Assembly (NCBI GenBank): GCA_033439295.1
Contig: JAVTLE010000005.1
Coordinates: forward strand, 310,001 to 374,000
Source: Deuterostichococcus epilithicus
Lineage: Eukaryota; Chlorophyta; Trebouxiophyceae; Prasiolales; Stichococcaceae
DNA length: 64,000 nt
Direction of reading: 5' to 3'
The translations under genes and the position numbers were made by a program. Under the pieces are notes generated by a model. It made no database searches and was not told the DNA's origin. It was given only the letters and a program-made list of their open reading frames with translations. Shown here in pieces: positions 7,175 through 60,100 of the stretch. How positions within the stretch are numbered: the stretch's first letter is position 1; each line of letters opens with the position of its first letter.

Positions 7175-10100
7175 ATGCAGATGCATGCAGGCAGCATCAT
7201 GCACGGGAGTCAGTCGCAACGTTCGGTGCGGCCTTGTCACGGCCAGCCACCCAGCCACGTGGTCCTTCGTGCAGCCTCACCCGTGGCGCCAGCGCAGCAC
7301 ACACTCGCCAGCAGGTGTCGGGAGACGCCAGCAGGCCAGCAGATCAGCCCGGGTCGGCGGCGCGCCACCCACGTCGGCCGCTCCAGCACGCTGGACATGG
7401 CAGCCACCAGCAGCCTGCAGGCGCCAGCAAAGCGGCTGACGAAGCAGGACTTGGTTGACTACCTTGGATCGGGGTGCTCTCCGCCTGATGAGTGGAGGTA
7501 GGCACAGATACACCGTCACGCTGAAACACACGTCGTAACTTGTGGTGTTGTGACTTGTGTCTGCTGAAATAATCACAGCAGCAGCTATACAGTTGTCCAC
7601 ATTGGTAGAGCAGTGATCCTGTCATTATTGCTGCGAACACGAGGCCCTCACCAGGCTCTGCGACCGGGGCCCAAAACCAAAATATGCTGACCTCCGCCGC
7701 CGGCGGCAGGGATGTGTTGCTGGGCTTGTGTGCGTTTGTGGATTTGCCTGGCATCTATTCTACGGGATGTATGAGACATGCAGATACACGTTCTACCCAT
7801 GCTGCTGCGGCTCTTCATACAACTGTCAGGCAAGGCCTGGGTAGGCAGCAGCAGTCATGTTATATTATCTGTTCTTGCTCCTTTTTGGTAATTGGCACAG
7901 GGATTGAGCAGGTGGTGGTGCCAGCGGCCGCTCTCAAGTAGGCGTTGGCCCGTCGCGACAGTGCGGGTCCTCCGGTGGCAGCGTGGCGCCACACAAGCAA
8001 CACACAATATCCTTCCTGCTGCACGTCTGGCGCGAGGCGCGACAAGCTGGCCATCAAGGCGGGCGCTATGCCGCGTCACGGACCAGGTCGCTCCGACGTG
8101 TGGTGTCCCGGGCGACATGTCATGCCCAGTGTCCCGCCGCCGCAGGATCGGCACGGAGCATGAGAAGCTGGCCATCAAGGCGGGCACCACGCAGCGAGCG
8201 GGCTACGAGGAAATCCGGCACATCCTGCAGGGCCTGGTGGACCGCTTCGGCTGGCGCCCCATCACCGAGTCCGGTGCGGTGGCTGCGCGGGGAATGCTCA
8301 CTGCACGGGATCCCGGGGTCCGTGCGCGGGGCAGCACAACTTGCTGTGGCACATCGTTTGGATTACCTGCGGTCAGTCGCATGTCTACGACGCTGTGCGA
8401 AATTGGGAAGGGTGCAGTGCATGCTGTGGGCTGCACAGTTGCGGGAGTAGCGATTTGCCGAGTAGCGGCACGGGCGCCGCTTTTGTGGTTGCAACTGTGG
8501 CACTTGTGACTGCTCATTGTCATACGGCACGTGCAGGGTGCGCGATGTGTCATATGCCCATCTTAGACAATTTCTTCGCCAGCAGCTCAAAACCCGGTCA
8601 AAGTTTATGGGCAAGACCCTGTCAGCAGCAGTGCTGAGTCTTGCATTGAACTATCGGCGTGGTTTTGAGCCGCTGGCAAAGTACATTGTCCAGGAACCAA
8701 GATGCGATGTTTGCAAGCAGCAATGCCTGTCAAGTTTTTGAATATCATGTGACCAGCTCGAGCTCAAGGCTGTTCCACAACTTTGCCGATCAGCTGCAGG
8801 AGAGACCAACGGCACTGTGCGTGGCGGGGCTGGACTACACCTCAGAGACGAGGCTTCCACACATCCTGCGCTGTGTTTATATGGCCCCATCCAGCTAGCC
8901 GAACATGCTGCCGCAGGCAAGGTTCTCAGCTGCGAGCTCGACGGGCGGAGCGTGGCGCCAGATTCGCACGGCCAGCCATGTGTCAAGTTGTCAACCACAC
9001 AGAGCATGCCTGTGACCCCAATTTCGCTGCCGCAGGCAAGATCATCGGCTGCGAGCTGGACGGGCAGAGCGTGACGCTGGAGCCAGGCGGCCAGTTCGAG
9101 CTGTCTGGCGCGCCGGTGTCCACCCTGCACCAGACCTGTGCAGAGGTCAACCAGCACTTGTACCAGGTGAGACGACTTCCGAGAACTTTCAGCCACTGAC
9201 TGTTGAGATGCGGAACTCTACCGGTCACTACGCTGCACCAGACCTCCGCCGACGTTGGCCAGCACCTGTACCAAGGTCCTATTAACAGGAAGCTTGTCGT
9301 ACTTGTCGCTCGTGCCGGCCTTGGGCTGCGCAATTTGCTGCTCAGCGATGTTCGAAGCGTCAAGAACACTGGTTGCTCTCAGAATGTGCGCTGACATGCG
9401 AGCCCCCTCGAAAGGCGCTGCCGCCCAGCATTTTTATCGTACCATGAGACAGGGTCTCCTCAGCATGTGCAGTCGATCATAAGCGCGCCACTGGGGGCAT
9501 TCAGATGGTCCTGCCGTGCCTGAGATTGCATTCCAGGTGCTTGGTTCCCCGCTTCAGGTAAATGCTCATTGATGAGGTCGGCATGCGAAGGGACGAACCC
9601 TATACGAAGCGGCTGACGCGAATCTTCGTGCGGTTGCTGATCACCGAGTCGACCCCTGCAGTCGTTGCCGTGCGTGCACGCAGCGCTGAGCTGAACACCT
9701 CTTGCTGTTCGCTATCAAGTCAAGACGCTGGAGGACAAGGTGGGGTGCGCTTCCTGAGCTTCCAGTCGGCCTCGCAGTCACTGCCGTTGGTGCTGAAAAA
9801 CACCTTGTGCTGTGCACTGTCAGGTCAAGACGCTGGCGGACGAAGTGGGGGTGCGGTTCCTCACCATAGGCTTCGACCCGCGGTCGGCCACGGAGGAGGT
9901 GCCCATCATGCCAAAGGCGCGCTACGACATCATGCGCGCCTACATGCCCACCGTTGGCAGCCTGGGACTGGACATGATGCTGCGCTCCACCACCATCCAG
10001 GTGGGCTTCATTTCATGTATCGACATCCCACAGACACCACCTCGCATGTCAGCTCGTAGGCAAGTGTCATTACTTTTCATAGATGATACATGGTCAAAAC

Positions 10101-13100
10101 AGAGCTCGCGAGCAAAGGGTGTTGCGGCAAGATGTGGCATGCATTCCTCACAGTGCTGCTGCCTTGACTGCATGTTGACCACAGCATTGCTCGTGTCCTC
10201 TGGCATGCGATGTGTGTCTACGGCCATTCACGCCCGCCGTGGCAACAGGTTGTAGCACACATTGGACACTGTGAGCTGTCAGTTGTTTAACGAGAAGCTG
10301 GACAGGCACCAGACATGCCACCGGGCTTGAAAGCGACAACGTTCGGGCTCTAGCTGCTCCCGCAGCTGCTCGAGGCCGCTGTAGCACGCAACGGCAGGTT
10401 GGCACCTGCACAACCAGGCAAATTCAAACTTGATTGGTCACGATCTGAGTTGCAGCATACAATGAGCGTCTCGTATCAACATTGCCCAGATGACTCCTGA
10501 CCTCTGGCTCGAAGGCATGCGGGTCCATGTGAGCTTTGCGGACGAGGCTGGATTGCCGATGGCGCGGCTGCGCATTGCTGGCCCTAGTGCTAGACCCCTC
10601 CCTGCTCAAAGCCTTGATGTCACTTGGTACCAGAAGCCCAAGTTAATCAAACTTATAGTTGTCTTGTAGTTCTGACTACCCTCTCCGCCCAAACCCTTTT
10701 CTGATGCCCCCCCTTGGCAGGTGAATGTGGACTTTGAGGACGAAGCGGACATGGTGCAGATGGCGCGGCTGGGCATCGCACTGCAGCCGATCGCGACGGC
10801 GCTGTTCGCAAACTCGCCCTTCCGGGACGGCAAGCCCACCGGCTACCTCAGCTGGCGCAGCCATGTATGGACGGACACGGTGGGTGGTTTGTAAAGATGT
10901 TGAACCATGCAAATGTTAGCAAACAGAGTATGAGAGACCCCTCTGCGAACCTGAAAGCAACTGCAGACCTGGGCACGAGCTGGCACAGGGCGCTCGGTAT
11001 TGCCCTGTCATCTCCAGCACGCCTGCATGATACTGGCAAATACTGGTGACAGCGGCTGGTGCCTGCACCCACCGCGGGCCTGCAGCGGCCAGGAGATTGA
11101 TGAGAGGAGCGGCTTTCGGCTGCACCGGCAAGCCACACGACAGCTGCCACAGCAACGTCGTGGCAGACACCCCAATCGTGCAGCTGCAGCTGCTACCGAC
11201 CGGATGTATCCTCGATCAACATTGGTCAACCACGACAATGGTTTCCTGAAAGTCGTTCATGCGCCACAGGACCCCGACCGGTGCGGCATTCTGCCGTTCA
11301 TCTTCGACGAGGACTTTGGCTTCGAGCGGTATGCAGAGTACGCGCTGGACGTCCCCATGTACTTCGTCAACAGGTGACGACTTGTAAGAAGAAACTCCTC
11401 ATCTTTTGTATCACAAGCCATGTACTTCGTCAACAGGTGAGACTCGGAACTTGCGAGGCTCGTGGAAATGGCGTCTGGAAACTCAGTCCTTGTTTTGGCA
11501 AACGGTGCCAACGCCTGTTGCAGCAGGCTTTGGCGCCTGGGTCTCTTGTAGCACCAATGGTGGTGCTGTAGTGCGTGGCATGCCCGTCACAGCCGCCTCA
11601 TCCCATCCGCAGCGCATAGCACCATGGCACTGCCTGACTATGACCATGGCACTGCCTGACTGTTCACCAGTTGCCCTGCAGGGAGGGGCGCTACATCTCG
11701 GCAGCGGGTCAGTCGTTCCGGGATTTCATGGAGGGCAAGCTCCCTGCGCTGCCGGGTGCGGTCTTGGCTTGCGTCCATGCATACATGCATCAACTCAGTT
11801 GGTGCAAATGCTGCCTTTGCGGCAGTCACAGGCGGCGCAGGTGACAGCGGCGTCTTTCAATGATGGGGAGCGGCACTGGCGGGGGCTGCCCTGTAGCATG
11901 TCACGCTGTGCATTGGCACGCCATGGTGGCAATGCCGCCACCCTGCAGCTGCCTCGCTTTCGCTGCTGCGCTGCATGTGCCGTCAACACGGACAATTATC
12001 ACCCATCTGCGTTGCAATCGAGCTGTCATAGCTGCAGCCTGCGTCCCGCTGCCGCACACGGCCAGAATGGCACCCGCCAGCCTCGCCTGCCGTAGAGCTG
12101 AGCTGGATCGAACGCCGTTGAGTCTTGGCGCAGGCGTCACCCACACCCTGAAGGGCCGGGAGATTGGTCCGGCAAGCCGTGTCCTCGGGTGTCTGGCTCG
12201 AGCGCCACTGTCGACCAGGATGTGTCGTGTGTCATGTCTCCAGGCGACTACCCGTCCCTGAAGGACTGGGAGACGCATCTGACGACCATCTTTCCGGAGA
12301 TCCGGCTCAAGCGGTACCTGGAGATGCGCGGCGCTGACGGCGGCCCCTGGACCAACATCTGCGCCCTGCCCGCGCTCTGGGTGTGACCCCGAGGGGCCTC
12401 CCGATGCCTGTGTTGACGCTTCTGGTTTTCTGGTTTCCCGCGCCCTTTGTCGGCAATGGCACCACCGCCCTGGAGCCAGTACCCTGGCAGTCAGTCGCCA
12501 GAGTCTCGGCTGGCAGTCGACCCCTGCAAGGGCATCAGAGGCAGGCCTGGAGATGCGGGACCCATGAAACGCCCTGTCAGCGCGTTGACGGCAGCCTGCT
12601 CGATGCCTGTGCCTCGTGCTGGTTGTTTGGGTATCGAATGTCGTGCTGCGCATGGGCGTGGAATCTGGCCCCATGATGAATCTGCCCCATGATGGCGTCA
12701 CGCTAGGGCAGCTAGGCATGTCCAGGCAATTGCCAAGGCAAGGCCTAGTTGCCCGTGTCGAAATCGTCATGGGTCGGCCCGGCCAAGCCTCACCGCACAG
12801 CAGCCCGCGGCTGCCACAGATCAATGACCGCCTGTGCATATGCTGCTTGCATCACCTTTGATTGGTTTGGGCATGAACCGCGCCCTGGCTCCATTGCTGC
12901 TGGTCACCTTCACAAGCCCTGCAATCGGCAAACCCTGTGCGCAGGTGAGCATCTTCCAGGGCAATCATGCGCGGGCAGAGGCGGCGCTGGCGTGTCAGCC
13001 CTGTGGGCAGTCTGATTTGGGAAACCGACTCCACATGTGCCCAACCCTGCAAACCCCGCTGCATGCAGGTGGGCATCTTCTATGACAAGGGCGCACAAGC

Positions 13101-14270
13101 GGAGGCGGCGCAGCTCGTGGCCGACTGGACGCTCCAGGACATGGCGCACATGCGGGAGCAGGTGCGACTCGCACATAGGGCCTTGAGCCTGGTCGCCAGA
13201 AAGTGCAAGCCAACGGTTCATAAATCGGAAATGGGATAATTGCTAAAAGGAAAATCTAATAGTGAGGCAAGTGCCGCAGAATGCCGATGGATTGGAGCGC
13301 TTTCAGGCTGCCGCCTGATTGCACTCCGTCGGTCCACAGTCTGTGACCGTATGAAGGAGACGGAGTTCTGTGATGATGCAACCTCTACCATCTGCAAAGT
13401 GCCAGCTCCTTTGCTGCACCCCGTAGCATATACGGAGGATGAATGTGCCAAAGGACAGCAGAGTTACATTATCACGGACCTCTGCCTACCCTTATACGAA
13501 TGCGTTGCTTTCAGACCTGAATTGTGTTGTAAGGCATCTGACGGCCGTGACCGTTCGAGTGTTGCATACCAGCTTGGCTCCCACAGTGCGCTTTCTGTTG
13601 GTCCACAGCCTGCTGCCCCGCTCACGTGCTGCGGCCGCACTGCCCGCAGGTGCCGCGGTTGGCGCTCAAGACGCCCTTCCGGGACGGCACCATCCAGGAC
13701 GTTGCCAAGCAGGTGGGCGCCGGATTGCCATGATCACCATTCAAGTGATATGTCGAGGGCAACAAGAGTCGACAGAATGAATCACACGCATCGCGCGCGG
13801 GCGGCGCCGTCCCATGTGTTGGCCAGCCGTAAGTGTGGCAGCCAAGGGAGGGATCGCGGGGCAGTCACCACAGCTGGTGGCTGTCGGCCTGCTGCAAGGC
13901 GCCGCCGGTGCAGGGCAGTGCAGCAGGAGACTCGACCGTGCCACAGTGACGGCGTCGCCTCAACCGTGTCGCTGGGGCCCACCAGAACCCGGCCATAGCG
14001 GAGGGGGATGCTGCGAGCACACAGCCAAAAGGAGGATCTGCAGACCAAGGGTCCAGCAGCTGCTCACACACACTCACCGCTGTGCAGGTGCTGGCCATCT
14101 CGCGGCGAGGGCTGCAGGCGCGCGGCAACGCGGAGGAGAAGTTCCTGGCGCCGCTGGAGGCCATTGCGGAGTCGGGCGTCACGCTGGCAGAGCAGATGCT
14201 GCAGCGCTACGAGGGCAGCTGGGGCGGCGACGTGTCGCACGCCTACGACGAGTCCGACTTCCAGTACTGA
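7175..14270 (+). CDS. GSH1: Glutamate-cysteine ligase, plastid type
   Basis: Joins L-glutamate and L-cysteine using ATP, the first step of glutathione synthesis. Eleven exons keep phase throughout: 7175-7497, 8146-8273, 9036-9166, 9824-10000, 10721-10879, 11270-11373, 11682-11755, 12244-12380, 13069-13161, 13650-13712 and 14088-14270. They give 523 residues, the normal plant length. Plant-type motifs run in order: [62 protein letters not shown] and KTPFRDG. The first ~75 residues from the ATG at 7175 are Ser/Arg-rich and look like a plastid transit peptide; starting at the ATG at 7397 would leave about 449 residues and remove it. The Cys pair behind the redox-switch disulfide of plant enzymes (CC2, Brassica juncea Cys186-Cys406) is present in HQTCAE and NICALP. 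The second pair (CC1) is absent: the sequence reads YISAAG and KLPALPG. Several exons have decayed partial copies in neighbouring introns, listed separately. Confidence 0.95.
8026..8085 (+). repeat. Decayed copy of GSH1 exon 2
   Basis: A 21-base stretch (aagctggccatcaaggcggg plus c) at 8044 is identical to exon 2 at 8165, 121 bases downstream. The flanks are recognisable but diverged. It encodes DKLAIKAG instead of EKLAIKAG, and the acceptor site is lost. Confidence 0.85.
8907..8975 (+). repeat. Decayed copy of acceptor plus 5' half of GSH1 exon 3
   Basis: gctgccgcaggcaag is followed by a frame reading [13 protein letters not shown], matching [17 protein letters not shown] of exon 3 about 120 bases downstream. 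The intronic bases before the acceptor are copied too. Confidence 0.88.
9209..9276 (+). repeat. Decayed copy of 3' half of GSH1 exon 3
   Basis: The frame reads [17 protein letters not shown], matching [17 protein letters not shown] about 112 bases upstream. The donor GTGAG has become AGGTCC. Exon 3 is thus flanked on both sides by partial copies of itself. Confidence 0.88.
9690..9785 (+). repeat. Decayed copy of acceptor plus start of GSH1 exon 4
   Basis: The frame reads VKTLEDKVG then RFLSFQSAS, matching [21 protein letters not shown]. The similarity starts inside the intron (gctgaacacctcttgctgtt against gctgaaaaacaccttgtgct), so the repeated unit spans the splice junction. The AG of the acceptor has mutated to AA. 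Confidence 0.87.
10517..10580 (+). repeat. Decayed copy of start of GSH1 exon 5
   Basis: The frame reads [19 protein letters not shown] against [20 protein letters not shown] in exon 5, about 200 bases downstream. Confidence 0.8.
11418..11440 (+). repeat. Exact copy of 3' end and donor of GSH1 exon 6
   Basis: Twenty-three bases starting ccatgtacttcgtcaacagg match the true exon 6 end and donor at 11355-11377 exactly. Two GTGA donors therefore lie 63 bases apart. Reading through the first meets an in-frame stop at once, so the first is probably the one used. Confidence 0.9.
11622..11663 (+). repeat. Short tandem repeat in GSH1 intron 6
   Basis: Two copies of a ~21-base unit containing accatggcactgcctgact lie end to end just before the exon 7 acceptor. 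Confidence 0.85.
12128..12166 (+). repeat. Decayed copy of start of GSH1 exon 8
   Basis: gcgcaggcgtc leads a frame [12 protein letters not shown], corresponding to [12 protein letters not shown] about 113 bases downstream. The acceptor CAG is kept. Confidence 0.65.
12949..13003 (+). repeat. Decayed copy of start of GSH1 exon 9
   Basis: After an intact CAG the frame reads [18 protein letters not shown], matching [19 protein letters not shown] about 116 bases downstream. Confidence 0.82.
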
Positions 14271-15081
14271 GGTCGGCACGAAGCAGCGTCGGAGGCTCCG
14301 GCGTGTCCAAGGGGGCGGCCAGGGCCAGCTGTGCGGCGGCAAGGCGCTGCTGGCCGCTAGCTGCCGCGCTTCCACCTGTCAGGAGGTCAAGGGAGTGCCG
14401 CCTGCCAAGGTTACCGCCAGCACTCGTGCAAGCTCCCATGGGCTCCATGGCACAGGCAGAGGAATACCGATGGGCGTTGTTAGACGAGGCGCAACGCCTC
14501 AATACATGCCTGGACGGTTGTGGCAGTTGAAACACAAGCATGAGAAGTGATGCACAATACTGGCACGAGTCAGATCGGAGCGCACGCTGGGTTTCATCCA
14601 TTGAAGTGACGGTCGGTTGCGGGACTTAGCTAGTCAAACTCAAGTATCGGATGGCGCTCTGGATTTAAAGCGCGCAGATTCTTTGGATTTCCGAGAAACC
14701 TCCTTACAAGTCGCCTTGGTCCAATGCAAGAGCTTCGAGATCATATTGGACATGACTACCCTTCTGAAGCCTGTTTCTCTGCTCAAGTCGCTTGCTCCCT
14801 GGGGCGCAATGTTCTCGGCCAAAGAGCGAACGACAGTGAGGAAATGTGCTAATGCCAACATGTACACGAGCACAGCGCCGGAGAGTTGGGGAACGCAACC
14901 TGTTGCGACGCGGTGCCACTTCTGTGCCCCAAGTTCATGGTCTTGTGACAGTTCCTGTGCGTGAATCTTTGACTGCAGGGCGGACTGCTCAGAATATGCT
15001 GTTTGACACTCAGTCACTTAGTATTAGGTCCCCGGAGGCTCCACCGGTTGCGCTCAGCCTCCGCGATTGCCGGGCAGCGCG
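14271..15081. other. Intergenic region between convergent genes
   Basis: Lies between the stop of GSH1 and the stop of the FNR-like gene on the opposite strand, so it should hold two 3' UTRs. I see no supported gene here. Confidence 0.5.
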
Positions 15082-18000
15082 TCAGAAGAAGTCGCAGAAG
15101 AGCACGCGTTCCCGCGCGATGCCCTCCATCACCAGCCGCCTACTCAGCGCCGCCACCACCTCTCCTGCGGAGAGGCAGCGTGTCCGGGGTCGATGGCACT
15201 GCTGGGCAGTGCCGCCAATGTAGGCAAGGCAGGCTAGGCAGGCAGGCAGCTGTCGCACAAACGGCTGGGGAAACAGCCTGGAGCATAGCACGCACACGCA
15301 GCTGCTTCTTCCGCTGAGCGGCTGCCACCAGCCCCTCCATCAACGCAGCAGCAGCAATGTGCAGCAGCATCGGGAGGCACAGCATGTCACAACAGCGCAG
15401 ACTCTGCTTGCATGGCTCGGCTGCACGTTGTGCCGCCCACCTGGCAGGCCGCCGATGAGCACGGCCGCATCTGACGCCGCGCTCCCGCGCAGTGCGGTCG
15501 AGAGACTGCCGCCCTGACACAGGGTGTCCACGATTGCGTCCTGCGGGCGGACACGAGTGGGGCTCAGCCCTTGGAGACTGACTATGGCTGGTGCGTGGCA
15601 AACACGGGGCTCAGCCCTTGGAGGTGTGCAGCGGCCGGAGTGTGCTGACTCGCCAGCTCTGTTGCTTGTGTCATATATGAGCAGCAAACCTCCAACCTAC
15701 TGAGCAGCACTGAGTCGCCGGCCTCGATTTCGAACTAGGCAAGTCTCGACGTGAGGAGTTCTTCTAAAGGGACCAATCGGGATCGCGCACCGCGAGAGCA
15801 AGGTTGCACTCGGCCTGCGGCTGCGCCAGCTCCTGGAGGAATATGGGCTCCACTGTCGCCTGCATATCGTGCAGGGCTTAGAGTTTAGGATTGAGGTGTC
15901 CTCACATGGCTTCTTGCCTTTGTGGTCGGAAGCAGAGGGTGCAACCCGTCAGAGACGGCACGCTGCGCCGCCTCCCTAGGCGTCAAAACAGGCCGAGCGA
16001 CCAGCGTCTCTGTGCCGGCACCGGAGTCGGCACAGCGTATCGCAGCGCGCAATGTAGACTGAGGCATGTGCCGCGGCAGGATCCGGGCGAAAATCACAAG
16101 TTCCTTGCCCAGCTGTGCCAGGGCCAGCGCTAGATGCCACCGCTGTGATATTCTCAAAACCTTCGCAGAGACTTCCCGAAGACAACCCCATCACAGAGGT
16201 GGGCAATGGTTTGGCCAGTCCTCTGTGGAGGCACGCCATGCCGAGAAGGCTCTGCCAGCTGCTGGACAACCTCCGCATCAAGACACGTCCAGTCAGCGTA
16301 GGGACCCAGGTTTGCGTGTGCACCGCGGCGGCAGCTGCAGTGGTGGCGGCAGTCGATTTCCACATCCATCCTTCCACTTTTGCATGCCGAACCAACACTG
16401 TGCTTGTGCTGTCTGCTGTACATCATGCTGCATTTGATGTACGCAATTTGATGCGCGATCGTCGCTGCAGCGCACCCCGTTAGCGCGCCATGTGTCCCAA
16501 TCGGAAACGTAGGCAGCCGCCTGCATCGACGGCGCGGCGTAGAACAGCGCCACCGCCTGCTGCGTCGCCGCGGCCTGCACAGCAGCCAGGTAGCGCGCCA
16601 CTCGCCGTGTGCGCCTTTTTAAGTGAGGGGGCGCATGCAGCGGTCACAGCCGGGCGCAGCTGCCATGCGTCAGTGCAGCACAGCAGCAGACATGCCAGAG
16701 ACCTCACATGGACAGAGGGCCGTGGCGCTGGCCAGTCACACTTGTCCGGCAACCTCCACACCCTGGATACAAGCAGCCTGGGCAGCATGACCTGACCATT
16801 GGCTGCTCGCCCTGCACAGCGACCAACACACGGGAGCGGGCCCATGGTCTTCCTCGCCATTCCCTTTCCTGGAAAGGGTATACCTGCAAGGGCGGCCACT
16901 CCATGGCGGCGCGCAGCGGCGCGATGCCCCGCGCCCCTGCGCCGATGAGCAGCAGCGGCCGCGCGTCCTCCAGCGCGCTCGTGAGGCTGACCACCGAGCT
17001 GAGCAGCGACGAGTACCTGCCAGGATTTTGAGGTTCAGGGTCAGTTTGAGTTGTCATGATGCATCAGGCTGGCCGGGTTCCACAAGGGCGTGTTGATGGG
17101 AAAACCTCCTGCAATGTCTGGTGTGCGTGTCTTCGCGCGTGCTCCAGCGCGCTGGCCGGCTCACTGCCGAGCTCGGTGGCAACTAAGAGCTGGCTCGGTC
17201 CCGAAGCTGGACTTGCAGCACCATCAGGGTGGGGTCGGGACTTGCAACGGGAGCAGGCTCCACGCCTCATTGGCCACATAGACGGGGTTGCACATGAGCG
17301 ATCAACTCTTGGTGGCAAGCCAGTCTTACTTTACCTCTTCAGGACACATGCCCGCTGAGCGTCCAGCCCCCCCCGGCCACAGGGTAAAGCAGGGGAGCAG
17401 CTGTCCTGTCGGTGTGATGGTCGGGAAGGAGGAAGCGGGATGCGGCGCACCCGCGTCCCAGGACCTCGCTAACTTGCAGCTGCGAGCCGGGCCCGAGGCC
17501 CATGAGCGCCGAGCCGCCGTTGCTGCCGCCGCCGCTGGCCCGCCGCTCCACCAGCACCTGGCGCGCGCCAGCACAAGGGTTTGGATGAAGGGAATACTGG
17601 GGGGGGGTCTTGTGCGCGCCAGCCAGGCTGCTGGCATCGAGGCGGCTGACAAGCCGGAGTCGCCTCCGGCCATGGCAGAGCGGCTGCAGGTGCGGTGACA
17701 CCGGAGGTGGCAATCGGTGGAGATGTGTGGCTGAGACCCGCAGGCCAGGAGCGGAGTGGGGTGCCGCCCATGGGCTGTAGACTGGAATGCTGTTGCAGCC
17801 CACCCGGACACAGAGTCCAGAAGTTTCTGGTGGCACCACAGGCGGGCTGTGAACGTCCAAAAGAGACGATTCCTGTGGCCACCTCAATGATGAAGGCATC
17901 AAGCGACAAAGAGCCCGCCCACACATGCGTCAGTTCGAGATTCCTCGCCCTGAAATCCTAAAACAACTGAGTTCAGGGGAGCCAGATCGTCGTCAGAGTG

Positions 18001-35018: not shown

Positions 35019-38000
35019 TCAGCTCCGCAGCACCTGGTCGAGATCGGCGCCGATGAACACGAGCGACTGGTCGCTATCCTCTGCGTGTACACTGTTGGCA
35101 TCTGACGCCCAACCCACTGGCGTGAACGACTGACTGCTGCCTGCGAAGTCGGAGGAGGGTCTGATAAGAATGCTGCTCATACCGAAATCAAAGTGCGCAC
35201 GTGCAGACTGGACCTCGCCCCCTTGTGGCAACCCCTCCAAGCCTGTTTGCACATGCGGCAGGCAGACAGGCGACCATCTGTCCTTCAGGTGCCGACTGGA
35301 TGCGCCGATCCCTGCGCCCCAGCATCTTTGCATAGCATTTCGCCTCCCAGCACTCACACTGCAGCACTAATCATCACCGTCACACGACACAGATCTGGGA
35401 TCGCGCCTGCAGAGGACCACTGCCAGCGGACGTCCGGCCGGTGCGCCAGCCAGAAGAAGCCCTTGGACCTCAGGCAACGCGGCAGGAGCGCCGCTTCCGC
35501 CGCTTTCTGCTGCCCGCCATCCCCGCCGGGGCCGCCGTCACAGCCGCCGGCGGCGGCGCCGCGGCCAGCGGCGTGGGGGCTGCAGCCGTCTGATGATGCG
35601 GCGCCGGGGACGGCGCCGCCGCCGCTGTCGGGATCAACCCCTGCGGCTCCAGCGCTGGCGCTGCACCCGGCGGTGTGCCCGGCAGCTACCGAGACTCGCT
35701 GGCGGACGTCGCCGCCTGTGTCTGAGACTGCCCGCCACAAGCGACCCGGGTGGAAGGGCCGCCGCTCAGCATCCCGCCACACGAAGCTGGAGATGCCGTA
35801 CTCCTCCGACTCTGGCGCGTGCGTCTGCTGCACCTCCTGCGGCAGGCCAGAATTTCGATGCTAGAGTAAACAAGGAAGCAGCAGTGCGGAACATGATGCC
35901 GAGATGGCTCCAGGCAGCACCCCGCTGTAGGGCGATGGCAGGCGCGCGCGCTGATCGAACACCCTATCAGATTTCGCAGATCGATTGCTGCCGCCAATCG
36001 ATGCGCTCAGCAAATGCTCGAATCCAGGAGAGACGCAGGAGCGAGGTGTCTCTACATGTAAGAATGCAGGGGCCGCGGCTGTGTGCGAGCCGGTGATGAC
36101 ATGCCCCACCTGCTGCCAGCCGGGCGTTGCGGCTGCCTCTGCCATGTCGAAGCGACCGGTGCCGAGCACCTCTGCAACATCCACGGCGCACCGCTCGCAG
36201 GGCAGCAGCCGAGCCGCAGGGTTTAGCCGCCGCACCGCCGCCTCAACCTGCTCAGCAGAGATGCATATACGAAAAGCTGGCTCAGTTCTCATCCTCCTCC
36301 TGGACACTGCAATGCTTCTTGAGCAAAGTGAACGCGTGCGCTCTATTTCCCATGGCGCATTCGATGCACTTACTCTTCGCACCTTGTGCGTTCTGCTGCC
36401 TGAGAGGATGGCAGCTGCACTGAGCGCACAGTCTTGACACGGCAACGCAACGAGCTGTGTGCGCCGATGGCAAACGGCAGCAGTGCAGTCTTCACATGGG
36501 CCTCAACAGGCTGCAGCAGCACTGCAGGAGCGGTGACACTGGCAGCATGTGCAGCGGTGGCCGCCCCCGTCAGGAGCAAAATTCAGGGTCCTGATCACCT
36601 GGTGCAGCTGCGACGATGTGACGAGATCGCACTTGTTGAGCAGGATGGTGTCCGCGAATTCGACCTGCACTGCAACGTTTGCAAGCCTTGCCGCCTGGTT
36701 GATCTGACAGCAGTCACCAGACAGTTTCAGCTGCACAAGTGGAGGAAAGCTGCGCTGCAAGGCTCGCATGTCTGGCTGCCTGAACGACTTGACCGCGGAC
36801 GGTGACCAGATAGGTTCAGCTGCACAGACGAGGAAACTCGCCTGGTCGATGAGCAGCTTGGCCAGGCTCCCTTCTTTCAGAGTCGTCTCTGCCTCGTCAG
36901 CTGCTGGGGAGGCCGCGCCGCCGCCATGCGCCATTGCCAGGAACTCTGCGGCATCCACGACCGTCACCTGACGCACACGACCGCGGCCCCGGGTCATGTA
37001 AACTCGACTGTCAGGCCACATGGCAGCGCGGCCGCAGAGGTGTGATGCGAGTCTGCTCAGCTACGGCACGACTAGGTTTTCGCCAGGTCTGTTCATATTT
37101 GACCTGCTGCAGCCTCTGGGCCACACATCGTGAGGGCAGCGCTGCGGGCTTCATACATACCATGGAGTCCAGAGTCGCGACGTCGGCCAGCGTACGGCCG
37201 CTGGCGCCTGCCGCGGCAAACGCCGCCGCCACGGGCTGCGGCTCCCCGATGCCGGTGGACTCCACGACGATGTGATCGAAGCGGTCCTGTGCTGCGAGCG
37301 CCGCCACCTCCTGTGCACAAAATTCTCCTTGTATATTGTAACAACAGAGTGAGGCTGGAAAGTTCATTTTGAAACAGTTCCTGCAATTTGCAAAGAACGT
37401 CGCATGCTATGCCAGCACAGTGCAGGCTCTTGAGGCATGTTGGGTTCGCCTGGCGTGGCTTCCCGCCACGGGATAGTCGCTGGCTGGCAGGGCGTATGCA
37501 TGTTCGAATCAGACAGAGGATGCTGTGCCAGTGGAAGCCCACCGGAGCAAGCTGTTCAGGCTCCACATGAGCTGCAGGCGAGGCACGGGTCTGCTGTGGC
37601 AGCTGGGAATGTTGGGGAAACACTAAGAGCTTAGTAGTCCCAGGGTCTTGTTCGACCGATCGCAAATCAGCAGATGCAGTCAGCGCGCAGGCTGCGGCAG
37701 ATGCAGCCATTACGGAGCTCCACCGGGCTCCAGCCTCGGACCCCTTCCCGAAAGCCTTTGAGACATGAAGACCACTTTACAAAAAACCGCACCTCGATCA
37801 GGTCGGCGCGCATGCTGCAGCAGATGCAGCCGTTGGTGAGCTCCACCAGGCGCGCTTTGGCGGTCCGGAATGCGCTGGCGTCCCGCACCAGCGCCGCGTC
37901 GACGTTGACTGCCGCCATGTCGTTCACGATGACCGCCACCTGCAGGCGCCGGGCAATGCAAGTATATCGGAGAAACGTTGATGAAATTTGCAGGTAAACC

Positions 38001-40219: not shown

Positions 40220-41507
40220 GCAGGCAGGCGCGAACTGCGCAGCCCTGCTCCAGGGAGCAGCAGACACCGTTGTGAAAACCTACGAGTCGCATCTTCGCGA
40301 GGCGCAGGTGGATGCTGCTACTGCAGGTGCGGCGTCGCCGCAGGCTGAGACACGGGTGTGCGGTAATGACATTTTGTGTATGACTCCGCGGCAATCTTGT
40401 GCATTCCATGGTGCTTGTACTGGCGCAGCCCGAAAAGGGACCTCAGACCTGACCACGCAAGCTTTTTCCGCGTGGCCCTGAGCTGAAGTCACTTCTCCTC
40501 TTTCTGGCCGCAGGATGCCAGCAAGCGGTGCCTCGGCTGCCGTGTGGAATACCCACCACGCCTCTTCCCGCCGCTGAGCAGCCAGCCGGACGGCCGGCAC
40601 ACGCTGTGCTGGGGCTGCCGCAGCGAGGACAATGAGCGCCGCCGGCCGCGCTCGTCCAGGTCACCAGCTTTTAAGCTTTGAACCATTGACAAACAGCCCA
40701 TTTTTGCCTGGTGTCCCCCCATTGCCGCCTGCTGCACAAACCCCATTGGCTGACGCGGATACTGCCATCTTCCTGCCGTCAACGCATGCGCGCCGCATAC
40801 ATCAACGTGCATCCTGCTGATGGTGACTGGGCCAGGCTGAGGCTTGCATGCAGGCATCCTTCTGGGGCGGACCGGCAGTGAATGACCGGATGCTGCTCTG
40901 CTAATGCAGGCAGTCCAAAGCAGGGTCGGATGTGCGCACCCGCTACCCACCGACGACTGAGCCGCAGACGTGCAGCAGTTGCAGAGCCACGCTGCCGGCG
41001 GCACACTTCTCTAGAGCCAGCAAAAACAAGTCAGGCCGGAGCACGCAGCGCAAAGCTTCCCTCTCCGAGGTGCGGGCGCGGCACTTTGCGGCGCGGGCCC
41101 CGCCGCAGACACCCGCGGCCAAGGAATGCCAGGCATGCCAGCAGGTGCTGCCCGCCACGGCCTTTTCCCGGAGCCTGATGAGCACGAGCGGCCTGCACAC
41201 GTACTGCCGCCGGTGCAGTGCGCAGAAGAGTGGAGCACACTGGAGGGAGCGCTCCCCGTCGCAGCTTCCGCCGGCGGCAGCCATGGTGTGCAGCACCTGC
41301 CGCCAGGCAAAGCCGCTCTCCAGCTTCACCAGTCAGCCTGGCACCCCATTCGGCGTCCGCAGCACCTGCATCGCATGCGATGCAGCTCGGCGTGCAGAGA
41401 GACGCCGCATGGCAGAGCTGCAGCAGGCGGCCAGCTCGGCCGGCAGCGGCAACGACCCCAGCAGCGCGGCCGGCGGCGATCAGGCGGCAGGCTTCCCAGC
41501 TGCCTGA
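40220..41507 (+). CDS. Protein of repeated CxxC zinc modules (5' end unresolved)
   Basis: Supported exons are 40220-40307, 40514-40659 and 40910-41507. The first supplies a helix (AADTVVKTYESHLREAQ) and starts in phase 2, so the initiator lies further upstream. Four modules follow a common pattern, CxxC, then P..F about seven residues on, then 21-22 residues in all before a second CxxC: CLGC...CWGC, CSSC...(missing), CQAC...CRRC and CSTC...CIAC. The second module has lost its second CxxC, where the sequence reads RSTQRKAS. The pattern resembles Stc1-like or other short treble-clef zinc ribbons that mediate protein or nucleic-acid contacts; this is a resemblance, not a firm assignment. The tail is Ala/Ser/Gly-rich. 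A hairpin lies over the stop codon. Confidence 0.65.
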
Positions 41508-42881: not shown

Positions 42882-43211
42882 CGCTCGAGCCGCATGACCC
42901 GAGTCGGCTTTCATCCACCCCCGCGACGAAGGGCTAGCATTGTGGCGTTGTCGCCCCGGTGCACCAGATACAGGCTTGATCGTCCATGATGACGTCATAG
43001 CAGTCCATCAAACCTGTCGAGCGGGCAAGCGCGGAAGCCGAGAGCTCTCGGGATGCGAGGTGCACGTGCCGTTAACAATGGAGGTGCAGAGGCGCCGTGG
43101 AGGTCCATGTATCTGCGCTAGCTTGTGAATGTCTTGCTACAAGATTGCAGAACCTCGCGCTTGCACGATCGCAGCTGGAAATGCGACACCTGTCTGCAGG
43201 CTGCGACCGCG

Positions 43212-47106: not shown

Positions 47107-47243
47107 GCGCTGTCCCGTGACACGGCAGCTGACATGGCAACACCACGGAAAGCTCCGTCTCATAATGGTGTGGTGGCTGCTTGCATGTCACTTCAACCAC
47201 GCTGCGACATTGAGCCTCATGTGAGCGCTGATTCGCTGGCTTT

Positions 47244-47320
47244 GCCCTGCGCTGGCATGACTCGCTGGCTCATGCCCTGCGCTGGCATGAGCCCTGCGCT
47301 GGAGCCCTGCGCTGGCATGA
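47244..47320 (+). repeat. Tandem repeat upstream of NMNAT
   Basis: gccctgcgctggcatga occurs at 47244, 47274 and 47304, with a truncated copy (gccctgcgctgga) at 47291. The copies are close to 30 bases apart. It lies in the 415-base gap between the mitochondrial protein gene and NMNAT, so it could be promoter or leader sequence of the latter. Confidence 0.9.
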
Positions 47321-50624
<3,304 letters not shown>

Positions 50625-51425
50625 TGAGGACAGTCAATGCCGCCTGTATGGCACTCTAAGCCTGCTGGTTCCGAGTTTTGAGGAGGGTCGCCCGAGCGCC
50701 GGGCAACAGTGGTGTGACAGGCGCTTTGAGAAGTTGGTTAACATGAGCAATGCTCGCTTCTCTTACCGAGTCTAGAGCATTTTTTTTGGTTTGCCGTCCT
50801 GGAACCAATGGGTGCCATGCGCAAATTGCACAAGAGATTCCAGAAACCCAGAGCACAGTCGACAGCTTACATGTCCCCAATCCTTCAAGCACTGCAGAAA
50901 GGCCATCGAAGTACAGGGCTGGCTGGCCTGACACGCACCGCTGCGCTCTGACTGTGCATGCTTGCTCTAGCAATGGTCACCATCTTGGCAGCGCATGAGG
51001 CGGCGCTGGCACCTCCTCGAGAAGATTGGTGAACCGGCCTGGTCGGCCGCATTTCACGCTTGAGGTTGGGCATCGCCGCGATGGACCTGTGATTCGCCTG
51101 TAAGCCGGCCCCATTTAGGTGCACTCTGCGCGATTGTGTTAACAAAGGCAGCCTGATTGCAAGAAGTGGCATCCCAGCATGGCTTGGAATGGAACAGGTG
51201 ATTGTGCAAACATGTGTGTGTCGAGTTCCCTCTAGCTGCATGCCGATGCAGAAAGTACGCATCGAGCCAGAATTGTCGCAGCCTAGGCAAGCCGAATGTG
51301 TCTTGAGGCGTAGAAATTGCGTGATGACACGCAGGCAGAGGGTGTGGCGGGCACGCCTAGGCAAGGAATCGAGATTTACAGATAGACAGTGGTCTGTGTG
51401 CACAAGATCAAAAAGGATTAAGCAC
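50625..51425. other. Intergenic region between convergent genes
   Basis: Holds the two 3' UTRs of NMNAT and the LanC-like gene. No gene or structured element is seen. Confidence 0.5.
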
Positions 51426-54400
51426 CTACAGCTCATAGCCGGGGAAGACGGCGTGCTGCGGGTCCAGCATGTCGACCCAGAAGCACACCGCTCCCGCCAG
51501 CCCCTGAGCACCAGAGGAGGCACCTGATATGACTAGGCACCATGAGCACCATATGAAGTGCTCAGGGAGTTCAGGCACTGAAGGTGAGAGCCAGGCTCGA
51601 CCTTCAGGTATGAACTCATGTTTACAGCGAGGAAGCCAGAAACACACCGCATGCGCTAGGCCCTGGACCGGCAGAAGGACCAGGAGATGCCGAGACGGAA
51701 AAGATTGAGGGCTGCTCAGTGGCAGTGTGCTGGAGGCCTTTGAGCCGGCGCAGCCGGCCGGAAGGGCACCACACCCTCCTGTCGCTTGGATTGCAGCACG
51801 AGCATTTGAGAAATTACATGATTGGCGGCGCTGTCATTCTGGCGCACCCACCTGCAGGCGCGGCGGTAGAACCGCTCTTGGCATGATTGAGCACCCTGGT
51901 GTGGACGCACTGGTTGCATGCGCCACCACCGCTCAAGGACTTGTCCAGCAGAACGGCACGCACCAGCGCACGACAGCTGCTGTGGGCTCGTGGCTGGGCT
52001 GCAACCACTGGCAGGCAGATGCAGAGGTCCGACAAGCCAAATCGCAGAGGTCAGAAGACCAACTAAAGGCCTTCGGACCTCTGTATCTGCTTTGGACCTC
52101 TGCATAGTGTTGCCGGTGTGCGGCAGACGCTCGGATGCTTGGCACACAGGCTTGCGCTCTCAGGCTGCTATCGGGCTGGCGCTGACAACTAATCGGCAGA
52201 TCGAACACTCAGGGGTGTGCGGGGCGCACGCATTCGTCGTGGCAAGTGCCAACAGAAGTGGTTCTTGAAGCGCAGCTGACAAGCATCCCAACCGCAAACA
52301 TCATTTCATTCGCACCTCGAACAGGGATGCCGGCGCATCCGGCACAGGGTACAGCTCCTTCCAGTGGCCGGCGGCAAACAGCGCAAATTGCACCGCCCGC
52401 CGGTAGTGCAGGGCGTCGCCAGTGGCGCGCGCATGCGAGAGCAGAGCGTAGCCGTTCCCGGACATGCCGTGGCACAGCCCCACCCCCTGGGGTCAGGTAC
52501 CAGCAGTCAGTAGCGTCTCAATTGCGGCCGCCTAATGATGGCCAGCTTGCAATGCGCAGGAGCAGACCTGGCCAAGGAAGTGCACGACAGCCACTACTGA
52601 CCTGCCGGCTGCAAGCTTTGCCAGCGATGCAAGCTCAGCTTAAGTTCCTCAGGAGATGGCACGAGAGGCGCTGACAGATGGGCAGTGCAGTTGCTGGTCT
52701 CATGGAAATTTGCATGGGCATGCCGGACCAGTTTACGATTTCGTGGCTTGCCAGGCCTGCAATTGAATTGCCAAACAGCGCAGCAACTAGCAACTGGCGC
52801 GTATTTTGCAGCCCTCGAACATGATTCAACGAGCCTCAGAGGGCTGCCTGCTGCAACGGGTCGACTGGCAGACGGCACAGGGACCACATGGACTACATGA
52901 GGCCAGCACGTGTGGCAGCATCAGGCAAGGACTCCTGCTCATCCCTCTGCCGCTGCCTGTCACGCCCACTGGAGCTCGGCTGTACGTGCGCCTGTGCAGC
53001 CGCTGCCCGCGCACAGCAACAGTTGGCACAACTACCGGCCGCCTCAGGGGAGGCGATTGGCCCTGTGCATCAACTACCACGTTCGCCCCGCTGCATGAGT
53101 CAAATCGCTGCTTCCACGTGCAGAGCGGCACCAGAGACGATATCCAGTTGGAAGAGGCTTGATATATGAGGTGAACACATAAAAACCTTGCGCAGCAGGC
53201 CACGCCGCCAGATGACGTCCGCCGCGCGGTCGCCGGCCGCATGCCACTCCGGCCGCGGCCCTAGCACCCGCTGCGCGGCCGCCAGCATCGGCAGCAGCCC
53301 GGCGGCGCCATGGCACCAGGACACCAGCCTGCCGGGAGCAGGTGCAGATATCAGATATATCAGATGTCTGATACCAGATTCCTGATATCTGATATTTGAT
53401 GAGATATGTGCTGGGGGGTGCGAAAGGTAGGATGGCACACAGCATGACAGCTGTGCGGCAGCGACAGAGATTCTGCGGGCTGCGAGAGTGCTGTTTCTGA
53501 TCGCTGGGCTGCTACCTATGGGAGGCACTGACAGCAACCGATGCAAGACACACACACACACGGATGGGTGCTGCTGGAAACGATGGCAGCGCTGCCGCTG
53601 AGCTGCGCAAGTTGCAACAGCCTGTGCATGGCGGCACAGGCTCTTTGCCCCTTGGGCTGCAGTTTGCGCAATCTGCTTCTACCACGAGCTTACTTGTACC
53701 ATGACAGCCAAAGTAAAAAGTTGGTCACCTGTCGCTATTGCTGCCGAGGGATGAGGGCAGATTGCCGCTGGGGAGCGTGAGCTCTAGCAGGCCATCCACC
53801 GCCTGCCGCACCGCCGCCGCCGCCGCCTGCCGGTCCCGCTCCCCGTCGGGCTGCGCCGCCGCCGGCGCCGCCAGCCCGTCCCTAGATGACGGAGCCGCCC
53901 GCCCGGCGGCAGCAGCCGCATCCCTGGCAGCAGCCGCCGCCGCCTGTGGCCCCGCCGCCGGTGCCGCGCAGCCGCCGGTGTCTGCGTCACCGTCGCCGGG
54001 AGGCGCGCCGCCGCTGGCAACCACGGCTTCGTTGCCGGCAGCTGCTGCAGGCGCCGCCTCCAGCCAGAGCAGCAGCGCCTGCAGGATGCCGGCGGTGCCG
54101 TGCGCACCGCCGAGGTACCACTTCCCGTGCCAGCAGTACGTCATGCCCCGGCTGCGCGGCGTGCCCGGCACGTTGACGTTGCGCTGGCCTGCAGGTCCAG
54201 CACGATCAGTTGTGCATCTGAGATCGCGCAGCTGGCTAGGAGCCAGCAGAGGACACCCTGTACAAGTGGAACAGTGCCAAGAGCGCTTTAATAGAGCGGG
54301 GCGCTGGTCAATGAGTGATGCACCTGGAGCTGGAGGGCCAGCAAGACGGACCGATACAGGCTGACGCTTGCGCTCTCGTCAGCAGCAGGCCGCATGCAGC

Positions 54401-56687: not shown

Positions 56688-56693
56688 CACCAT

Positions 56694-57180
56694 ACAAGTG
56701 ACTGCTAGTCGCAAAGGATGCTGCTGCACACCGCAGCTGCTCTAGTTGTCGTGCATGATTGCCGGGAATCGTCCGACAGGTCCACCGCCAAATTACAAAC
56801 CCTGGACACCAGCTGTGCAAACTTTTCACTGATTGTCAACGCGCCCATTTCAGGGAGTACCCAATTGCTAAGGCTGTGATTGGCTGTGTGTAGAAAGAAT
56901 AGGCCTCGATCCGAGAGCCGAAGCAATCAGACGCAAAGAGCAGGCGCAATCCGCGCGACGGCAGAAATCTGAAAGCTTGCATGTACCCAATAACACAACG
57001 GAGCAGGTGCTTTTGATACAGGTCATACTTTCGGTACACTCTGAAGGATTCCGGAGCCTACAAGCTCCAATCACACCCCAGGGGCCTTCGGTCCGGCGAC
57101 AGGGGCAGAAGCCTCCACCCCTCTGATTGCGCTCACTGTTCTGCCGAACGGCGCCCAGCCTGAACAACCTCTGTCAGTTT
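56694..57180. other. Intergenic region
   Basis: About 490 bases between two minus-strand genes: promoter of the LanC-like gene and 3' UTR of allantoate amidohydrolase. No gene is seen. Confidence 0.45.
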
Positions 57181-60100
57181 TCACACCACCTCGGCGTGCA
57201 GGTACGCGAGCAGCGCCGCCGTCGCCGCCGCAACGTCCACGTCATCGACTTTCTCCTCCGGCGAGTGGCTGATGCCGCCATTGCGGCAGCGCACGAACAG
57301 CATGCCCATGGGGCCAGCCTCCGCCATCGCCAGGGCGTCGTGGCCGGCGCCACTGACCAGTTCTGGCAGCTTGGCCGCCGCCGTCGCCAGGGAGCCCGCA
57401 TCTGGCTCCGCGGCGCCCGCCGCTGCCTGCCCGAATGCTGCTGCCGTTGGCTGGGCTGCTTGTGTCGCTACATTGGCCGAGCCGCCAATAGGGCTGCTGC
57501 CGTCATCGCCGCCGCTGCCGCCGCCGCTGCCGCCAACTTCCTGGATGTGCAAGGAGCAGGCGCCCTCGCTGGCAGTGTCGCTGCCCGCTCGGCAGACACC
57601 CGCTCCCGGTTCCGGACCGCCCTTCCCCTGACAGGCCGCGCCCGCTGGGCAGGCGNCCCCCGCCGCCACCTGCTGCGGCGCCTGGCTGACCCGCGGCACC
57701 CTCTGCGGCTGCGCGGGCTGCTCGGCCAGTAGCGGCGGAGCCGCTGTGTCAGCGTCGGCACCCGCCAGCGCCCGCCGCAGCAGCGGTGCCGACGCGGCGG
57801 CCGCCGCCGACAGGCCACTGATGATGCGCGGGTCGCACTGCGTCGCCGGCGCGTCGTGCACCCTGTCCACATGGCAGGCGATGCCACGCCTGCACCGGAG
57901 GTTTTGGCAACATGAACATCTGGAGTGGCTCCAGCAGCGGCAGCGACACATCGACAACATGGCTTTAGCTGATGCAGACCTGCCAACGGCGCAAGTAGCC
58001 CATTGCAGCGGGCTCAGCAGATCACATTCACTCCATCATGCAAAGGCATGGCGATCTGCGCTTGCGATAGAGTTTGCCACCAGTGCTCTGATCGCTGGAG
58101 CCGTACAGAGCGGGCGCCTTCCGGCTGCCCGTCCCTGCCAACAGGGCAGCAGTGCTGTCCAACTTCACACCAAAAGCCCCACAGCAGACTCCTACAGCAG
58201 ACCAAGCCAGGGAAACCACCATAGGAACTCTGCGGGGCAGAATCACCAGGTGCACAGGGAGGCAATGCTGGCGGTCGCGTCCGCTACCACCATCCTATTA
58301 CCCCAAACCACGAAAAGCGCCCCGCGAGGCGGTTTCACCTGGTGCACAGGGCGGCGCTGCCGGCGGTCGTTGCAACCCCTGCAGCACAACCAGTCCCGGA
58401 AAGTCAACATGATGATTTTCACCTGGTGCACAGGGCGGCGATGCTGGCGGTCACGTCTGCCACGACCGCCTCCCTCACGCCGTCCGCACGGCAGCGGATG
58501 TCGACCGTGAAGTTTGCGGACCCCGGGATGACGTTGGAAGCGCCCGGCCAGATGGCGGCGGACCCGACGGTGCACACCAGATTGTCCTCCGTTGTGAAGC
58601 CTGCGGGATGACAGATGCCAGACTAGATGTCACCTTATTGCAGACCTGTTTGCTGCTGTGAAGCCTGCAGATTGACATGTGCCAGGCTGCTTGGGGGCTG
58701 ACTGCAGCGGATGCCAGCATAGGCTCGCGTCGGAATACGCGGCATGCCGGCGAAGGCCAATCACGGGTGTCGGCACATCCTGGTGCCTTCTTCCATGCAA
58801 AAGGCCGCTCAAATGGGTAATTTATCATCCGCTGACGTGGGAGCTCAATGAATTTGATTCTGCTATATACGATGTCGGCACCTTCGAGCTGTGCGCCTGC
58901 ATGGCGCCCGCCGCCGCAGCGGCGCTCCAGCAGCGAGATGGCCTCCGCGGCTGCTGCCAGCGGGTCCCGCCGCAGCACCATTGGCACCGTGCCCGCGTGC
59001 CCCTGCGCACAGATACTGGCTGGTTAAATATCAGATACATCGACAATGAACAATGATTGTCGAATCATGAAAATTTCGATTGGCTGATTACAACGAGGAT
59101 TGGCTTATTTGGACATCGTATCAGACGGTCGGGTAGCAACACGCCCCAGCTTGCGGCCGCTGCCATTGGGTGTGAACTGCCGTGCCCGCATTGGGCGGAT
59201 CCCGTGCGCGCCCAGGGGCTCTCCTCGCTAGAGGTGGTAACACACGACTGAGAAACCATCTGCCCTGCCACGAAAACCAGTTCTCAACAGCTGACACGCT
59301 AACTCAGTGTGCTGCACTGTTGCACCCTGTTCTGCTAGCGGCAGGAGCCGCCCGGTCTCTGGACACCCACCTGGCTGCCAGAGATGGACACGGACAGCCG
59401 CGTCTGCCCTGAGATGGCGGCCACCGGCGCCAGCGCCAGCGCCAGCGCCTCCAGCACAGGGCCCTGCTCCATGTGCAACTCCACATACCTGAGTCGAGTA
59501 CAAGAGTGAGAAGAATGATGCTACGACAAGAATGAATGGTAGCAGACGGTCTGATATCAAATGGGTGGCCCAGATCAAATAAGTGGCCTAGTGTCACGAT
59601 GGGCGCCGGCGCCGGCGCCGGCGCCTCCAACATGAGGCCCTAGTCCATGTGCAAATCCACAGACCAGGACCAACGCAGAAAGCATAGTCGGTTTATGACT
59701 GCAGAATGTGCAAGGACATCTCAACCCTCCACTCGCGATCATCAGCAGCGCCAGCAGCTTGAGCACAGGGCTTTGACCCATGTGCACCACCATGTGGCTG
59801 CGTCATGAACGATAAAACGGTCCTGGAATGGAGTGCTGCCCTGGATCGTTGATCACCCCAGCGTGGTTCCTTTCACTTCGTTTAGCCTCGAATTTCAATG
59901 TACTCACCTTGGTGGCTTGTAAGGGTGGCAGTCGCAGGCTGACCTCGCTTTCACTCAAGAAGCAGAAGCTGCACCCTCAACACACTCTGCCTCGGTTACA
60001 AAAGCAGCGGTGAGGGTCCAGCTGTGCACCCGCGGATGCGCTCGCGCGGCACTGCGATGTTGGCGATGGCGGCCGGCGACGCGTCGAAGCCGTGCATCGA

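Follow-up and report, generated by a model that had tools for sequence, protein, structure and literature searches.

Exon-edge copies across introns

The introns of the chlorophyte Deuterostichococcus epilithicus repeatedly contain a second, decaying copy of the edge of an adjoining exon, and these exon-edge copies are real, widespread, and far above chance in the sequence analyzed here. The starting point was a 64,000-nt stretch, which we refer to as the window (C5:310001-374000, on contig JAVTLE010000005.1 of assembly GCA_033439295.1, 46.8 Mb in 21 contigs), where a preliminary description based on the letters alone had claimed about 19 cases. Together with 190 kb from contigs C1, C3, C4, C6, C10, C12, and C14 (approximately 4 kb of one stretch is N), the sample amounts to 254 kb; the window itself has 11 ambiguous bases. 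Genes were predicted with a hidden Markov gene finder that was self-trained on the 254 kb from a weak initial consensus and converged on AG-GTGAG/GTGCG-type donors and TGCAG-G-type acceptors (hyphens mark the junction). Exon labels outside GSH1, the gene treated next, rest on this gene finder, whose faults include fused genes, tiny exons, and 50 GC donors among its 576 predicted introns. After exclusion of introns with N, 547 remained, and removal of a further 172 with short exons or introns left the 375 that were counted.

When the 60-nt edges of the flanking exons were aligned to the intron between them, at least one copy (match score of at least 16) was found in 43 of the 375 introns, where approximately 2 are expected. 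Counted by side, 22 introns matched the upstream exon's final 60 nt, where 1.5 are expected, and 26 matched the initial 60 nt of the exon downstream, where 0.5 are expected. The preliminary description had proposed this very alignment, with equal frequencies in mismatched intron-exon pairs as the outcome that would count against it; across the window and the additional 190 kb, the outcome is the excess just given. With whole exons and a score of at least 18, copies were present in 52 of the 375 introns and in 48 of the 258 that are at least 200 nt long, counted per intron rather than per gene; 31 of the 52 have copies on the acceptor side only, 16 on the donor side only, and 5 on both. Introns are longer where copies sit, as had been suggested (median 416 nt, compared with 253 nt for all introns), partly because long introns present more target. 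Neighboring introns both carried copies in 11 instances against 6.3 expected (p = 0.029), a mild clustering. Exons with copies have a higher GC content at third codon positions (GC3; 0.90 vs 0.85, p = 1e-5), a difference on which we do not lean because wrongly predicted exons would lower GC3.

Within the window, each match was scored against 200 mismatched introns and called clear at p ≤ 0.005, with 0/200 denoting that no control equaled the score. By this measure 21 copies are clear, so the recurrence originally described is borne out with slightly different assignments.

Copies in GSH1

The gene in which the copies are best delimited is GSH1, encoding glutamate-cysteine ligase (positions 7397-14270 of the window, forward strand). 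Its 11 exons (7397-7497, 8146-8273, 9036-9166, 9824-10000, 10721-10879, 11270-11373, 11682-11755, 12244-12380, 13069-13161, 13650-13712, and 14088-14270) were placed by exon-by-exon alignment of the protein P0001 together with splice dinucleotides, the end of exon 1 at 7497 being taken from AG-GT. P0001 is a 449-aa protein from a 2145-nt JGI contig, and it aligns to all 11 exons and skips the intron copies. Identity is 94-100% in ten of them and 81% in exon 9, where the match overruns the exon ends. As this contig is only 2145 nt long and the gene approximately 6.9 kb, the contig must presumably be a spliced transcript. Additional matches of P0001 to the intron copies are weak (8029-8082, 8913-8975, and from 12933 onward). 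The closest relatives of the edited query protein are P0001 (96%), P0002 (77%; MMETSP1473), which we take to be from a Stichococcus, and P0003 (71%), followed by named GSH1 proteins of Coccomyxa, Trebouxia, and Chlorella at approximately 63-66%.

Twelve matches in GSH1 score at least 14. Eight of them, spread over seven of the ten introns, stand at 0/200: intron 1 holds a copy (8005-8075; 51/70 identical) of the start of exon 2 (8127-8196), and intron 2 a copy (8907-8975; 55/69) of the start of exon 3 (9026-9094). Intron 3 has copies of both of its flanks, namely of the end of exon 3 (9113-9168) at 9221-9277 (44/56) and of the start of exon 4 (9799-9885) at 9694-9779 (68/83), the latter a nearly full tandem with 19 nt between the copies unaligned. 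The start of exon 5 (10717-10779) recurs in intron 4 at 10519-10578 (48/60), and the end of exon 6 (11355-11387) in intron 6 at 11418-11449 (30/32); the exact 23-of-23 repeat reported earlier lies within the latter pair, at 11355-11377 and 11418-11440. Intron 7 contains a copy (12119-12204; 56/85) of the start of exon 8 (12228-12313), and intron 8 a copy (12928-12994; 52/67) of the start of exon 9 (13049-13119); part of this intron 8 copy misled the gene finder into calling an exon. Nine copies had been claimed for this gene; eight are clear, and the other four matches are weaker (p 0.03-0.145).

Anatomy and decay of the copies

A copy typically comprises approximately 20-90 nt of exon and from a few to approximately 25 nt of intron, and lies 60-200 nt from its original; most cover only part of the exon, and a few look exon-like. 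On the donor side (13 of the 43 pairs), match rates are 0.46-0.85 up to intron base 7 and at background from approximately base 9. On the acceptor side (23 of the 43), they are 0.57-0.74 across the final four intron bases, falling to approximately 0.4 at positions -5 to -14; in the acceptor copies of GSH1, for which wider flanks were allowed, the intron part is 4-25 nt. Copies take in the splice signal but mostly end soon after it, similarity reaching background approximately 9 nt past donors and fading over approximately 5-25 nt before acceptors.

The copies decay, as the preliminary description had proposed, and show no coding constraint. Gaps are frame-shifting in 52 of 58 cases, difference rates by codon position are close to even (0.155/0.137/0.193), and lags modulo 3 are evenly distributed (14/15/14). 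Stops occur in 5 of 670 codons, a low number that is expected because the sequence is GC-rich, and decoy splice dinucleotides are retained only in part (GT in 9 of 13, AG in 12 of 23). The suggestion of a repeated process also gains ground from the gene AAH, in which one acceptor edge has two copies that score 42 and 30.5 against the exon and below 26 against each other; being closer to the exon than to one another, they indicate that this edge was probably the source of more than one copying event.

Local direct repeats and their position

An excess of local direct repeats is evident independently of the intron alignments. In the self-comparison of the window, exact repeats of at least 14 bases at lags of 20-119 number 10, where far lags yield approximately 0.03 per 50 lags. 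After removal of low-complexity pairs, which preceded all pair counts, ungapped direct pairs scoring at least 15 at lags of 15-400 number 31 in the window, where far lags predict 0.75; under a stricter low-complexity filter there are 21 (0.18 expected), and the seven other blocks together hold 98, with approximately 1 expected for the window and blocks combined. Orientation is strongly skewed at this score, with 100 direct pairs (lags 50-400) and 5 inverted pairs (arms 40-400 apart), for which the far controls are 0.7 and 1.7, respectively; inverted templated insertions were rejected on these counts.

The 89 non-redundant pairs fall into two main groups by lag, 24 at 15-50 and 49 at 50-160, with 16 more at 160-400. 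In the first group, 18 of 24 are intron-intron pairs. In the second, exon-intron pairs number 30 against 17.6 under rotated annotation, intron-intron pairs 6 against 20.2, and exon-exon pairs 13 against 7.8, and 28 pairs overlap a junction against 16.3 (the maximum in 300 annotation rotations was 25). The pairs at 160-400 comprise 8 exon-intron, 6 exon-exon, and 2 intron-intron. The exon-exon label mixes true protein repeats with decoys mispredicted as exons by the gene finder.

Other repeats in the sample have a different character. Short exact tandem repeats with lags of 22-60 (window positions 47243-47324, 11621-11661, and 15559-15623) belong to the separate short-lag class. Gln/Ala-rich low-complexity coding repeats at 3700-4900 of the window give many short-lag matches and are unrelated to the exon-edge copies. 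The sole long inverted pair in the sample is a hairpin or MITE-like element (MITE, miniature inverted-repeat transposable element) at L009:2184-2406, with two 92-nt arms approximately 40 nt apart.

Spacers between exon and copy

Plain tandem duplication of a unit spanning the junction predicts that the intron between the two copies resembles the intron beyond the copy. The spacers, which are 14-138 nt long in the window, showed little of this resemblance: their mean local score against the expected partner intron was 7.36, compared with 6.99 for random introns, and p < 0.05 was reached in 4 of 37 pairs (6 of the 43 had too little spacer). Shared words were in no significant excess among 50 pairs (the nearest approach, at k = 5, was matched by 5.5% of null sets), and anchored extension into the flank gave 2.18 vs 1.89, with a clear result in 2 of 57. 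In simulations of plain tandem duplication matched on exon identity and covering donor-side events only, flank homology was detected in 31, 45, 71, 82, and 96% of cases across rising identity bins; for the observed mix, this corresponds to approximately 21 of 37, where 4 were seen.

Two other sources of the spacers were considered and rejected. Copying from elsewhere finds no match, in that two spacers searched genome-wide match only themselves, and derivation from the other exon edge, as in classical intron birth by tandem duplication, gave a mean p of 0.51 over 42 pairs. The donor side of AAH provides a history in miniature: a stretch of intron flank is common to two older copies (49/65 at lag 92), and the youngest copy (34/36) is separated from the exon edge by 48 nt that by eye appear unrelated to that flank, an arrangement that the arrival of new sequence together with a new copy at the junction would produce.

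A proposed origin

The best explanation for these observations, in which we place about even confidence, is that repeated local insertion at exon edges, likely during the repair of staggered breaks, left most of the copies behind as relics. In each such event, some 20-90 nt of exon end and the adjoining splice signal would be duplicated in direct orientation, with unrelated sequence (14-138 nt in the window) coming to separate the copy from the original. A staggered break, or close nicks on the two strands, could produce this arrangement if the overhang were filled in on both sides, yielding the duplication, and filler were captured in between. The outer exon copy would still code and splice, and the inner copy would be removed with the intron, lengthen it, and drift. 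The direct repeats do flank mostly unrelated spacers, as staggered-break repair with insertion would leave them; we infer the break repair itself, the lengthening of introns by the event, and the insertion of the spacer as opposed to its prior presence.

This interpretation must be made cautiously, as several observations weigh against it. A filler of 50-100 nt of unrelated sequence is long for end joining. A cruder test with shuffled spacers gave mean z values of 2.7 (donor) and 1.8 (acceptor) on the side expected under tandem duplication and of 0.8 and 1.2 on the other, although a few pairs, L015:349 among them, account for most of this signal. Five spacers have weak matches in the sample (E 0.0005-0.009), and some cases, described below, are plain tandem duplications, so that more than one process acts. 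Random breaks would further be expected, by our own reasoning rather than by a published standard, to show no preference for exon edges, and intron-intron pairs are depleted. Under a model that lets duplications with filler land anywhere and retains only those that leave the exons intact, there should be 1.48 intron-intron pairs for every exon-intron pair, and the intron part of a copied segment should have a median of 10 nt; we observed 36 exon-intron pairs, 10 labeled intron-intron (4 on inspection), and 19 labeled exon-exon, and a median intron part of 1.5 nt. Given so few intron-intron pairs and so short an intron part, an additional exon-edge bias is needed. The process itself, or some factor outside the model, favors exon edges, and break repair alone leaves this preference unexplained.

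Alternative explanations

One may postulate instead that the copies are plain tandem duplications with units of approximately 100-150 nt that span the junction, selection tolerating only junction-spanning or intron-internal units, such that the junction-centering is a by-product of exon constraint. Single cases are certainly of this kind: at L015:349-650, the clearest, a fresh 120-nt unit spans a predicted donor in three copies that are approximately 93-98% identical, L002:9393 is a nearly full tandem at lag 104, and several window pairs leave just 14-23 nt unaligned (e.g., 19 nt at 9694 and 14 nt at 58639). The six pairs whose spacers were too short fall outside the flank test, and similarity is located just where the copy's exon is constrained, in the exon and the splice signal. 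That tolerated tandem units must span junctions does account for part of the junction excess, but not for the unrelated spacers; flank homology was significant in only 1 of the 8 tested pairs with identity of at least 0.85, and even in donor-side simulations that give intron flanks a threefold higher rate of evolution than the copy, approximately 8 of 37 detections are expected compared with the 4 seen. The original proposal of tandem junction duplication followed by decay thus describes single cases such as L015:349 but is not supported as a general rule, with spacer homology significant in 4 of 37 pairs, and we regard it as a possible but unlikely account of most copies.

Copying coupled to splicing or transcription appears more doubtful. 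In this scenario, the copied unit would be limited to the exon edge and splice signal by nascent RNA or by an R-loop with splicing factors bound at its borders; the footprint of the splicing machinery would then set the boundaries of mutation, exon edges would be written into the adjoining intron, and introns would grow from their junctions, a picture to which we likewise assign a low probability. Donor-side similarity that stops approximately 8 nt into the intron, acceptor-side similarity confined to approximately 25 nt, and the scarcity of intron-intron pairs all fit, and the higher GC3 of exons with copies (0.90 vs 0.85) could be an expression signal, albeit a confounded one, given that GC3 may only mark correctly predicted exons. 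Work in other organisms indicates that RNA can influence or template break repair (PMC11390984, PMC12065846), which is in keeping with the scenario. Nevertheless, in none of the 43 cases does the sequence beside the copy carry on into the next exon (two matches were self-overlaps), so spliced mRNA was not the template, and that variant was rejected.

A functional role for the copies, whether as alternative or mutually exclusive exons or as decoys maintained by selection, is very improbable. A few (L002:9681 and L006:9767) do combine an open frame with a splice site at each end, but the predominance of frame-shifting gaps and the near-even differences across codon positions led us to reject retention as coding sequence, and the loss of AG from 11 of 23 decoys, the even lags modulo 3, and the omission of the copies from the GSH1 protein of the transcript-sized contig point the same way. 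Chance similarity or assembly artifact is scarcely credible despite the ambiguous bases in the window: chance and low complexity were rejected by the far-lag and mismatched-intron controls, most copies diverge from their exon by 5-30%, and where one edge has two copies their differences are independent, which assembly error would not readily produce.

Relation to known systems

The staggered-break reading can be set beside several known systems. Insertions with direct repeats following staggered breaks are described in new Daphnia introns (PMC4202315), which resemble the present case in combining a direct repeat with inserted sequence, in lengthening through repeated bouts, and in the decay of the repeats; the repeats here are longer, approximately 20-90 nt, and lie mostly on the same side as the exon. 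Tandem duplications arising from overhangs of 43-50 nt (PMC8355091) are similar in size (below 100 nt) and direct orientation, but those are tandem and follow induced breaks in cultured cells, whereas here spacers are usually unrelated and exon edges are favored. Intron gain by tandem genomic duplication, in which the new intron has the length of the repeat distance (PMC3443670), likewise duplicates exon sequence with splice-site-like ends; in our sample, however, 48 of 57 introns are longer than the lag by at least 60 nt. Candidates for recent births of this kind, picked out by eye, are the NMNAT intron at 48399-48549 of the window (lag 171) and a 98-nt intron in L004 near 3271-3369 (lag approximately 93). 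Mutually exclusive exons (PMC6071210) also involve exon sequence duplicated within an intron, but the copies here are mostly exon edges only and are decaying. Introners (PMC9860276) share with our observations large-scale intron growth or gain, but there is no dispersed intron family here: only 1 of the 375 introns matches elsewhere in the 254 kb, and introner-like families were rejected on this count.

Among the top matches from open-license PubMed Central, we found no description of genome-wide exon-edge copies in introns; because subscription journals lie mostly outside that collection, this is weak evidence of novelty. If the sampled rate (52/375) holds genome-wide, there would be thousands of relics, nearly all direct, limited in distance, and favoring exon edges. 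Such relics would offer a testable system for intron lengthening, for the birth and death of decoy splice sites, and for the shaping of mutation by splicing or exon chromatin. Exon-edge copies also mislead gene finders.

Other copies in the window and sample

In the rest of the window, surveyed outside GSH1 for matches with p ≤ 0.01 or a score of at least 17, 13 copies are clear and 4 marginal. Family searches cover GSH1 and AAH, while the names FNR-like, NMNAT, LanC-like, array gene, CobW/TPR, and IF3 derive from the preliminary description or from translations. The per-gene counts given there hold for the array gene, the CobW/TPR GTPase, and the LanC-like gene (one each), but AAH has five clear copies in three introns rather than four, the NMNAT region three rather than two, and the FNR-like gene one, with a second that is marginal; a gene near 41.1 kb has one more.

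All of these clear copies stand at 0/200 except that of a predicted exon end (41090-41162) at 41246-41314 on the forward strand (50/68; p 0.005). On the same strand, the array gene has an intron copy of an exon end (32306-32362) at 32404-32462 (48/57), and NMNAT has an intron copy of an exon start (47504-47550) at 47388-47437 (37/47) and a short one of an exon end (48595-48611) at 48631-48647 (16/17). The third NMNAT copy (48504-48547), of the exon end at 48333-48376, occupies the 3′ end of the 151-nt intron 48399-48549, the candidate intron birth mentioned above. The remaining genes lie on the reverse strand. The FNR-like gene has an intron copy of an exon start (16960-17019) at 17134-17192 (43/59), the CobW/TPR GTPase one of an exon end (37802-37851) at 37679-37728 (42/50), and the LanC-like gene one of an exon start (51477-51524) at 51636-51681 (35/46). 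In AAH, an older copy (58243-58291; 42/49) and a younger copy (58333-58368; 34/36) correspond to one exon end (58419-58467 and 58417-58452, respectively); the copy at 58639-58688 (40/50) of the exon start 58571-58624 is the nearly full tandem with 14 nt unaligned, and a further exon start is matched twice, at 59602-59665 (from 59426-59489; 53/64) and 59729-59804 (from 59421-59495; 54/75).

Elsewhere in the sample, the region from L013:9563 to L014:1909 contains many exon-edge copies at lags of 116-245 and constitutes another hot spot besides GSH1. From L002:9600 to L003:30, a predicted exon, which we take from its motif to resemble translation initiation factor IF3, has two upstream intron copies, the nearer of which retains acceptor, frame, and donor.

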